Source: Alphaproteobacteria bacterium (GTDB taxonomy: Bacteria > Pseudomonadota > Alphaproteobacteria > GCA-2731375). From it: DNA of 47,385 nt. A program made the position numbers and the translations under genes. Positions 3,905 through 6,709 of this stretch are shown piece after piece; position 1 is the first letter of the stretch; each line of letters starts with the position of its first letter. The notes beneath the pieces are model-generated. The model was not told the DNA's origin. It searched no databases and was given only the letters and a program-made list of their open reading frames with translations. The stretch spans positions 1 through 47,385 of the forward strand of contig JAJFGG010000099.1 in NCBI GenBank assembly GCA_021776235.1. Reading direction: 5' to 3'.

Positions 3905-4939
3905 TTATGATTCGGTTGTGCCGGGCCGGTTAGAACCATCCCGGGCAGCGGCCTTGATTTTTGCCAGGTGCCGGGCCGGATTGACGGCCTTGCGGCCCCG
4001 ACGGATTTCAAAATGAAGCTGCGGACGGGAGATATTGCCGGTACTGCCCGAAACCGCGATCCTTTGCCCCCGGCGCACCACATCGCCGACTTTCACCATC
4101 AGGGACTGATTATGGCCATAGGCGGTCAGCCAGCCGCCGCGATGGCGCAGCAGCAACAGATTGCCAAAGCCGCGTAGTTCGTTGCCTGCATAGACCACCA
4201 CGCCATTTTCCGCCGCCCGGACAGCAGTTCCCTTTTCCACCGCGATATTGATGCCGTCGTTATGCAGGCCATTGGGTTTGACGCCAAAGCGGGAGATGAC
4301 CCGGCCTTTGACGGGCCAGGCAAAACGGCCCGCGGCGCGCGCCGGCGGCCGGGTCGTAACGGGGCGCCTGGCTTTGGTCCGGGCCTTGGGCCTGGGTTTG
4401 TCCCGTGGCACGGGAACGGCGGAAACCGCAGAGTCTGCGACGGATTTGTTGCCGGCCCCAGGCGCCACACCTGGCTGCGCCTGGCCAGGGGCGTCGCTGG
4501 CGGGGAGGCGCAGGCGGTCCCCGGGCCGGATCTTATAGGGTGGTGGCACCTGATTGTTTCGGGCCAGGGCGTAAAGCGAGACGCGATGCCGGCGCGAAAT
4601 GGAATACAGGGTCTCGCCGGCGGCAACCCGATGATAACGCACGGCGGGAATTTGCAAATGTTGACCCTGGCGCAATCGATAGGGTGGCGCCAGGCTGTTG
4701 GCCGCGATCAGGTCCCGCAAGGCGACGCCGGAGCGTCGGGCAATGGCATAAAGCGTTTCGTCCGCCGCCACCGTGTAGTCGCCGGCAGCCAGGGTATTTG
4801 CCACAGCCTGCTTGACCGGCCTGTCTTTGCCGCTGCCTTGCGTGCCATAAACTACCGGGGCCGGGACCGACCGGGCGCAGGCCGCCAGCAAAACCAGCGT
4901 CCCCAGTAAAAGCGTCGTTTTGACCAGAATCGCCCACAT
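3905..4939 (-). CDS. NlpD-like lipoprotein, LysM repeats plus degenerate LytM (M23) domain
   Basis: The 344-residue product starts with a lipoprotein signal ending in LLAAC (Cys21), so it should be anchored by lipid, probably at the outer membrane. Two LysM peptidoglycan-binding repeats follow (about 52-97 and 98-145), then a Pro/Lys/Arg-rich linker and a C-terminal LytM/M23 domain. The zinc ligands look degenerate: the usual HxGxD reads NDGIN, and the usual HLHFE reads QLHFE. This resembles NlpD/EnvC-type amidase activators rather than an active endopeptidase (inference). I prefer the ATG at 4939, with GAGGGGGT upstream, over a TTG at 4975. It follows pcm, as nlpD does in many proteobacteria, but a palindromic element now separates them. 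Confidence 0.9.
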   Translation of the reverse strand: MWAILVKTTLLLGTLVLLAACARSVPAPVVYGTQGSGKDRPVKQAVANTLAAGDYTVAADETLYAIARRSGVALRDLIAANSLAPPYRLRQGQHLQIPAVRYHRVAAGETLYSISRRHRVSLYALARNNQVPPPYKIRPGDRLRLPASDAPGQAQPGVAPGAGNKSVADSAVSAVPVPRDKPRPKARTKARRPVTTRPPARAAGRFAWPVKGRVISRFGVKPNGLHNDGINIAVEKGTAVRAAENGVVVYAGNELRGFGNLLLLRHRGGWLTAYGHNQSLMVKVGDVVRRGQRIAVSGSTGNISRPQLHFEIRRGRKAVNPARHLAKIKAAARDGSNRPGTTES

Positions 4940-4998
4940 ACCCGGACGATACCCCCTCACCGCCCTGCTCGGCAAACCCTGGCTCGCGCTACAGCCAT

Positions 4999-5267
4999 AA
5001 TTAGAGCACTTCCGGGCTATTGTGAGTCATTTGATGGTGACCATAAGCCATTCGGGTAGGCGCGTCGCGTAACGCGATGTGGTTCATCGGGCAAGCGGCG
5101 CAACACATCCGAATGGCTTAGGGACGCCACCGAAGGCCGTCCACCAAGGCCCCGTGGCGGCGTTGCGGTTCTTGGACGATGAACCACATCGACCTGCAAA
5201 CCGCGCCTACCCACGGGGCCTTGGTGGACGGTCAAATGACTCACAATAGCCCGGAAATGCTCTAATT
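4999..5267. repeat. 269-bp palindromic repeat element with 36-bp terminal inverted repeats
   Basis: The two ends, 4999-5034 and 5232-5267, are inverted copies of each other with one mismatch in 36. Inside are four more pairs of perfect or near-perfect inverted arms: 5044-5055 with 5109-5120 (12 bp), 5054-5064 with 5202-5212 (11 bp), 5075-5089 with 5177-5191 (15 bp) and 5137-5157 with 5211-5231 (21 bp). It has no convincing gene, so it resembles a MITE or REP-type element that would be moved by enzymes encoded elsewhere. I see no clear target-site duplication beyond possible 1-2 bp. It lies between pcm and the NlpD-like gene. The arms allow two alternative folds (see findings). Confidence 0.88.
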
Positions 5268-5903
5268 CCGCCCGATTGGCATGCCATCCATCAGGGGCAC
5301 GAAGCGGACGTCCAGCAAAGTCTCTTCGTGGAAGCCCTCACTGTCCCGGGTAAGGCGGACCAGGGTCTGATCACCGGACGGGCCCACGGGCACAACCATA
5401 ATACCGCCTTCAGCCAACTGATCGGCCAGAGTCACCGGCATTCGCGGCGCGGCGGCGGTTACGATGATGCGGGCGAATGGCGCCAATTCCGGCCAGCCGC
5501 GGTTACCATCGCCCAATCGGGTGGTGATGTTGTGGAGCTTTAGCGCCTCGAAGCGGGCTTCCGCCTGGGCGAGAAGAGAGCGGTACCGTTCTATGGTGCA
5601 GACCCGCCGGCATAATTTCGACAGCACGGCGGCCTGATAACCCGATCCCGTACCGATTTCCAGGACCCGGTCTCGCGGTCCCAGTCGCAGGGCCTGGGTC
5701 ATATAGGCGACGATGAACGGCTGCGAGATCGTTTGCCCCTGGCTGATCGGCAGGGGCAAATTTTCATAGGCTTCCGAGCGCAGAGCTTCCGGCACGAACA
5801 ACTCCCGGGGCACCCTTTCGACAGCGCCCAAGACCTGTTTATCGGTAATGCCCTGTTTGCGCAGCTCCATGATGAGGCGGATCTTGTTCGCCTCGTAGGT
5901 CAT
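5262..5903 (-). CDS. pcm: Protein-L-isoaspartate O-methyltransferase
   Basis: Pcm repairs damaged proteins by methylating L-isoaspartyl residues with S-adenosylmethionine. The open frame is longer, but the protein family begins at the ATG at 5903 (MTYEANKIRLIMELR), giving 213 residues, the normal length. Seen in the sequence: the substrate-site segment PISQGQTISQP, the SAM-binding motif VLEIGTGSGYQAAVL and the later GDGNRGWPE. Its last residue (Asn) and its TAG stop lie inside the right end of the 269-bp repeat, so the insertion set the present C-terminus. It follows surE by 23 bp, matching the conserved serS-surE-pcm order. Confidence 0.96.
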   Translation of the reverse strand: MTYEANKIRLIMELRKQGITDKQVLGAVERVPRELFVPEALRSEAYENLPLPISQGQTISQPFIVAYMTQALRLGPRDRVLEIGTGSGYQAAVLSKLCRRVCTIERYRSLLAQAEARFEALKLHNITTRLGDGNRGWPELAPFARIIVTAAAPRMPVTLADQLAEGGIMVVPVGPSGDQTLVRLTRDSEGFHEETLLDVRFVPLMDGMPIGRN

Positions 5904-5926
5904 AGCAAAGATCCTTGATACTATCC

Positions 5927-6709
5927 CTAAAACGCCGCCTTGAGTTGCTTCAAGGCCTTGTTTTCTGTCAGATCTAAATGCAGCGGTGTGATGGCGATAC
6001 GCCCCGCCTCGGTGACCGCCAGGTCCGTGCCGGCCTTTGGTACGCCCTGGATGGGGCGAAAGCCGATCCAATAATAGGGCTGCTCCCGCGCATCGACCCG
6101 TTGCTCTATATTCAAGGCCGAGAAGTCGCGCCGGCCTTGACGGCAGACCTCGATACCCTGCACATCGCCGGGCAGGACATCCGGAAAATTGACATTCATC
6201 AACACATCCTTGGACCAACCCAGGGCCACCAAACGGCGGATCACGGCGCCTGCATGCTTTTCCGCCGTGGGCCAATGCATCACCTTACGGTTGGCGAACG
6301 ACTGGCTTAAGGCAATGGATGGCACCCCGACCAGGGTGCCTTCCATGGCGGCGGCGATGGTGCCGGAATAGGTCACGTCCTCTCCCATGTTGGCGCCCCG
6401 ATTGACACCGGACAGCAGCAGGTCCGGGCGCTTATCGGCCATCACCTGGTTCAACGCCATCATGACGCAATCGGTCGGCGTTCCGCGCACGGCGAATTTC
6501 CGGGCGGAAATCTTGCGCAACCGCAACGGCGCGGTCAAAGTCAGGGAATGACCGGCACCGCTATGTTCGTCCTCCGGCGCCACCACCCAGACATCGTCGG
6601 ACAGGGTCTTGGCGATGCGCTGCAACACCTTCATACCCGGGGCATTGATGCCGTCATCATTGGTCAGCAAAATACGCGTACGCCGTAGATCGGCAAGTTT
6701 TCGAGCCAT
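5927..6709 (-). CDS. surE: 5'/3'-nucleotidase SurE
   Basis: SurE is a metal-dependent phosphatase acting on nucleoside 5'- and 3'-monophosphates, linked to stationary-phase survival. The 260-residue product has the N-terminal motif ILLTNDDGINAPGM (Asp18-Asp19 are expected metal ligands), the EDEHSGAGHSLTL segment with the conserved Ser, and LLSGVNRGANMGED with the conserved Asn. The start at 6709 lies 2 bp after the serS stop, so the two genes are almost certainly cotranscribed; pcm follows. The few residues before ILLTNDD are a normal variation. No oddities seen. Confidence 0.96.
   Translation of the reverse strand: MARKLADLRRTRILLTNDDGINAPGMKVLQRIAKTLSDDVWVVAPEDEHSGAGHSLTLTAPLRLRKISARKFAVRGTPTDCVMMALNQVMADKRPDLLLSGVNRGANMGEDVTYSGTIAAAMEGTLVGVPSIALSQSFANRKVMHWPTAEKHAGAVIRRLVALGWSKDVLMNVNFPDVLPGDVQGIEVCRQGRRDFSALNIEQRVDAREQPYYWIGFRPIQGVPKAGTDLAVTEAGRIAITPLHLDLTENKALKQLKAAF

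Follow-up and report, generated by a model that had tools for sequence, protein, structure and literature searches.

Among the repeats that most resemble the element described in this work are bacterial MITEs, with which it has in common a short length, terminal inverted repeats, TA ends, many dispersed copies and target duplication (the last in one related subfamily), although here the terminal repeats vary between families whilst a two-lobed core is conserved, and no parent IS was found in the genomes searched. The RIMEs of Rhizobium are intergenic palindromic mosaic repeats of the Alphaproteobacteria; blastn of plasmid records with the element gave matches only in Agrobacterium and Thalassospira, and none in Sinorhizobium or Rhizobium. 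REP dimers and REPINs likewise pair two hairpins in inverted orientation and carry a GTAG-like tag, but our element adds enclosing terminal repeats and a TA or TNA duplication, and has no association with a RAYT. The CIRs of Caulobacter and Brucella, as listed in PMC2229807, are likewise intergenic alphaproteobacterial elements with TA termini and two arms joined by a linker. That listing, however, gives them about 110 bp, a GANTC in one loop and no listed terminal repeat, as opposed to the 263 bp and 33-bp terminal repeats seen here, so that the two are set apart by description. GANTC occurs inside the arms in eight of our 74 representative elements and anywhere in 30 of them, with no CIR-like conservation. 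The Bru-RS, described as palindromic repeats of about 103–105 bp from the same class (PMC2267715), are likened to our element by that description. IS711 of Brucella, which is reported to duplicate TA in YTAR (PMC2266754), is alike in its target and differs in having a transposase, of which the element has none. None of the titles and abstract openings retrieved from the literature describes the element, and an earlier description under the name of CIR or RIME is possible.

In the window (the whole 47,385-nt stretch of contig JAJFGG010000099.1 that was analysed) the element occupies positions 5002–5264, with no strand assigned. Its ends, TAGAGC...GCTCTA with TA on both sides, were set from comparison with 48 full copies, a count that leaves out L028, a repeat listing of the window copy (two of 50 rows); the same comparison places the outermost pairs of the initial annotation (4999–5001/5265–5267) in the flank. 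The left (5002–5034, + strand) and right (5232–5264, − strand) terminal inverted repeats are the 5′ and 3′ arms of stem A, by the evidence of copies, pairing and covariation. They enclose lobe 1 (5034–5129), with its head sense on the + strand and arm B inside, a short linker of no assigned strand (5130–5136, from the MFE and consensus folds), and lobe 2 (5137–5232), with its head sense on the − strand and arm E inside. Both lobes are supported by covariation and by R1, a covariance model of lobe 1 made from 26 hand-picked lobes (96 positions, 22 pairs), which matches the window at 5034–5129 on + (88.5 bits) and 5137–5232 on − (69.9 bits), and a third time, weakly and antisense, on lobe 1 (19.7 bits). 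By these matches, lobe 2 is an inverted relative of lobe 1. No ORF of 80 or more amino acids lies within 5002–5264, and neither the window, searched against Rfam at gathering score, nor the phage records gave any match to the element; in E-value mode, Rfam returned seven matches for eight loci, all under their gathering scores (e.g., MIR918, 60 versus 268 bits).

The element is dispersed throughout its own genome (6.36 Mb in 174 contigs), where the scoring of 40 of 155 candidates gave at least 84 matches, amounting to at least 40 distinct places after merging strand matches, 17 of them full length. Relatives were found in 13 of 60 other genomes (14 of 61 with its own), that is, in 10 of 11 genomes of the genus, its own included, in three of four from other genera of the family and in one of 46 beyond. 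The initial annotation had called for such a search of host and relatives, and the copies found in both bear out its idea of an evolved, multi-copy structured element, with internal arms that the other copies retain. Elements are often found at contig ends (in the own genome, in relatives and at loci carrying the conserved head), hence the assemblies are broken and these copy numbers are lower bounds. A second subfamily, with ends ATACCAATGGTCCTTGATATTGACC... and the same two-lobed core, is present in the own genome (L127, L128 and L131, on contigs C60, C116 and C172). An 86-bp derivative (L071 2216–2301, equivalent to C25:93215–93300) retains the two termini together with a portion of a single lobe, and is probably an internal deletion, whilst L068–L076 contain pieces resembling the terminal repeat at YTAR-like sites with no recognisable second end, which are perhaps remnants. 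Shorter TA-ended versions also exist (L156, L205 of 137 bp and L211 of 161 bp), of which L156 and L205 are too short for two lobes; all three may be monomers or deletion products.

Beyond these close copies, it is the core that recurs. The head, GATGTGGTNCATCGGGCAAGC, is present with two or fewer mismatches in 12 of 21 genomes and its reversed pattern in none, and an exact scan of contigs found it in at least 106 stretches. The 80 matches listed out of these belong by title to alphaproteobacterial groups, including Hyphomicrobiales, Rhizobiaceae, Anderseniella, Pelagibius, Inquilinus limosus, Hoeflea poritis, Oryzicola mucosus and others, except for two titled only Proteobacteria. Inverted arms ending in TA are seen at 116 of 190 head sites. 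The 105 distinct elements were thinned to 74 representatives (73 distinct, L055 being included in both orientations). Their terminal repeats are unrelated, yet one plan recurs, in which a stem encloses a lobe, a short linker and a second, inverted lobe. In some families about 300 nt long, a small third hairpin is added. Within the class, R1 has matches in 30 of 289 genomes, representing 26 of 223 genera, and in the phylum in 23 of 299 genomes, 16 of the latter outside the class, with some matches near threshold; a 50-kb stretch of pSymB from S. meliloti gave no E-value below 0.36. Enclosing arms were sought at 11 of the 16 out-of-class loci fetched and found at every one, inverted, 24–38 nt long and 203–227 nt apart, and seven of 17 out-of-class loci show both lobes in opposite directions at an E-value of 0.01 or less, R1 E-values being rough. 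Four in-class loci were tested likewise; L358 and L359 have enclosing arms, L360 and L361 none.

These properties, namely terminal inverted repeats at conserved boundaries and many dispersed copies without a transposase gene, make it likely, in our opinion, that the element is a non-autonomous MITE with 33-bp terminal repeats and a YTAR target, moved in trans, and with a core of two inverted homologous lobes. At 141 of 156 ends the element is preceded by a C or a T, which points to YTAR as the target, with the TA likely duplicated; for the TAG subfamily of the window this duplication is probable. In the related TACC subfamily, on the other hand, a clean duplication is directly visible. The plasmid of Agrobacterium sp. 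MA01 (L319) has a filled site, ...ATGC-TGA-[TACC...GGTA]-TGA-AGCCC..., whereas the related plasmids of Agrobacterium RAC06 and Rhizobium rosettiformans have empty ones (...ATGC-TGA-AGCCC... and ...ATGC-TGA-GGCCC..., respectively), and insertion was precise with a 3-bp duplication of TGA. For the TAG subfamily, joining the flanks of 114 elements gave six unconvincing spanning matches as candidate empty sites, all from the aberrant 161-bp L211. TA and TNA target duplications are grouped with the IS5 family, and this type of target suggests that the partner transposase is probably IS5-like. A transposase acting in trans would thus move the element, inserting it at YTAR and probably duplicating the TA.

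The partner itself was searched for in several ways. No transposase gene bearing the element's ends was present at the 22 Y1, 26 DDE_3 and 83 DUF4096 or DDE_Tnp_1 loci of the genomes searched, and in these genomes no ends were common to the element and a transposase-bearing IS of the same genome. The nearest end match links a DUF4096 IS of the window's genome (L277, C157) to a two-lobed element of another class (L354, G352); two looser ones involve one Y1 and one IS630 locus. A lobe is found at one of the 83 IS5-type loci (L297). A link to IS630 was rejected, as the head is absent from all 26 DDE_3 loci and the scattered loose end matches (up to six mismatches in 20) were judged to be chance. 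Also set aside was a pair of end-like sites 1419 bp apart (G000:C56), which holds no recognised transposase frame and is putatively larA/larC-like by reading alone. No large copies with heads and a transposase were seen among 58 of the 126 head sites without a short element, several of which had little flank.

As for the structure, the five pairs of inverted arms reported in the initial annotation are all present, far beyond what shuffled sequences offer. Stem A pairs at 32 of the 33 positions inside the element, C (5054–5064/5202–5212) at 11 of 11, D (5075–5089/5177–5191) at 15 of 15 and E (5137–5157/5211–5231) at 21 of 21, and B (5044–5055/5109–5120), which sits within a 26-nt arm pair, at 12 of 12 when read directly. 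The crossings and overlaps described there hold as well, with D straddling both B and E, C overlapping B at 5054–5055 and the 3′ arm of C overlapping that of E at 5211–5212. Folding of both strands, as had been proposed, gives MFEs of −183.2 and −186.4 kcal/mol (287 nt; z −16.0 and −16.8), each far more stable than its shuffles, none of 200 being as good. The two folds that can be drawn from these arms are not predicted to be near-equal: A+B+E reaches −178.1 kcal/mol versus −163.3 for a forced A+C+D with RNA parameters, and −108.2 versus −93.0 with DNA parameters, so that the former is favoured by about 15 kcal/mol in both models. Amongst the 74 related elements the single long hairpin is the MFE fold in five on the + strand and seven on the − strand, all the rest having at least two side domains; by these predictions, the element may form the long hairpin transiently.

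Which fold is kept can be read from the changes that copies have accumulated. In an alignment of 23 representatives hand-picked from the window's family out of the 74 (A1), 95.6% of the A+B+E cells are paired and 39 of 105 pairs have changed on both sides (15 of 33 in stem A), with none of 500 shuffles as high on any measure, whereas slid controls have only 33.5–40.1% of cells paired and 7–12 pairs changed on both sides. RNAalifold, unaided, arrives at A+B+E. On a tree of 36 distinct 263-nt copies out of the 48 full ones, compensating double events number 33 in A (16 pairs), 21 in lobe 1 (12 pairs) and 35 in lobe 2 (14 pairs), and pair-breaking events number 38, 16 and 41, respectively, their frequency in A and lobe 2 being a point against the favoured reading. 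The conserved fold is nevertheless, with strong support, the one in which stem A closes and B and E form side lobes, and this closed stem with its two lobes would be the working fold. Selection, or repair copying between arms, would keep stem A and both lobes paired whilst their sequences change.

The initial annotation had seen in the alternative pairing either nested past inversions or selection for a structural switch between A+B+E and A+C+D. Such a switch could draw on the fact that 99.2% of C cells and 91.8% of D cells are paired in the copies, on the occasional elements for which the long hairpin is optimal, and on three of the five measures, for which C+D scores slightly higher than shuffles do (paired cells, cells with changes on both sides, and covariation score, with 11, 12 and 7 of 500 shuffles as high), an excess that may come from relatedness, as the tool itself warns. 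Yet compensating changes, the check proposed at the outset, come out strongly for B and E and negatively for C and D. C+D alone has two of 26 pairs changed on both sides, where shuffles average 1.9 and 465 of 500 reach as many, and of the 24 of 99 such pairs in A+C+D as a whole, 19 lie within the helix of A and its extension. On the tree, C has no compensating event and D three (two pairs), against two and 21 pair-breaking ones, and D is broken in one relative, L035, whose lobe 1 has changed its apical stem and compensated within the lobe. The + strand arm of C (5054–5064) is part of the conserved head, with no double change in its 11 pairs, and that of D (5075–5089) forms the apical hairpin of lobe 1 in the main fold, by pairing and covariation. 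Kinship of the two lobes in inverted orientation makes their conserved heads complementary, and C and D arise without any selected switch; the second fold, also the weaker one, is best explained as a by-product of this homology. We therefore regard a selected switch as improbable, and of the nested inversions only the part concerning an inverted lobe, enough in itself to create C and D, seems right.

A more serious rival concerns the origin of the pairing in A, B and E. Quasipalindrome correction is DNA repair copying between arms, and it is conceivable, if doubtful, that this alone keeps the arms paired with no selection for a folded function. Stem A fits it, with 33 double compensating events exceeding 13 single pair-keeping ones, and with no strand preference in the changes from Watson–Crick pairs on the + strand (13 to G-U, 18 to A-C). 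The core fits it less, since families whose stems are unrelated share the conserved head sequence and lobe 1 prefers G-U on the + strand (22 versus 2); lobe 2 has 19 versus 24 and hence no clear bias in tree events. RNA folding energy favours the head-sense strand in both lobes (62 versus 3 in lobe 1 and 55 versus 10 in lobe 2) and not clearly in stem A (34 versus 22, p 0.16), in a set of 68 of the 73 elements with two clear lobes that are not independent, the head being inherited. These are hints that the core may act as single-stranded RNA or DNA. The idea of a REPIN-like REP pair mobilised by a RAYT, suggested by the two inverted hairpins and by a GTAG-like tag in many lobes, seems to us very improbable: head, terminal repeat and linker are absent from all 22 Y1 loci, which offer three short GTAG-like matches only; two genomes with elements (G002 and G005, both incomplete assemblies) have no Y1 match; neither the enclosing terminal repeats nor the target duplication agrees with it; and the tag is not invariant, as the T before AGG varies in an alignment of 26 lobes. 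That the element is a mere chance rearrangement can practically be dismissed, being refuted by the shuffles and by conserved copies in many genomes, with nothing found in its favour. A broader reading, which we mention tentatively, is that the core is an independent, phylum-wide nucleic-acid module, repeatedly re-flanked and riding different IS5-like transposases, and acting as a single-stranded, lobe-sense 3′ UTR hairpin; each lobe would then have its own sense direction, and any gene reading in would get one correctly oriented hairpin.

Returning to the favoured MITE, its insertions bear a clear relation to stop codons. The initial annotation rightly placed the element downstream of pcm, and it is in fact the right end of the element that supplies the TAG stop of this gene (5262–5264, − strand), as the ORF end and the PCMT domain show. 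The surrounding gene order is surE-pcm-nlpD-like, and the element separates pcm from a LysM/M23 gene; surE, pcm, the element and the LysM/M23 peptidase gene (nlpD-like) follow one another on one strand at 3905–6709 (−), and the element is likely inside a co-transcribed group. At 70 element ends a clear long frame runs into the repeat; in 46 cases it stops exactly at the element's TAG, as opposed to 9 and 15 cases for the other two frames, and a further 86 ends show no such frame. Counted by element, 37 of 75 coincide with a stop codon, 17 are entered by a long frame that does not stop at the TAG and 21 by none, whilst amongst YTAR sites that do not fall in the interior of a gene 170 of 848 are stops in L139–L244 and 10 of 51 in the window, the per-element and YTAR counts being approximate as they come from a simple ORF caller. 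Stop codons are thus enriched, either by target choice or by survival. Upon insertion into TAR, the TA and the first G of the element would rebuild a TAG stop, which is how such insertions would spare the protein, leaving it intact and placing the core in the 3′ UTR.

MITEs are usually viewed as decayed ISs whose inside is of no importance. Here it is the inside that is conserved and the ends that vary. The results also correct a natural misreading, since two homologous inverted lobes resemble a two-state switch. If the core is functional, this would be a structured element of wide distribution, which searches with a covariance model can recover from many genomes, and a transposon inserting at stop codons could give genes a structured 3′ UTR with no damage to their proteins.
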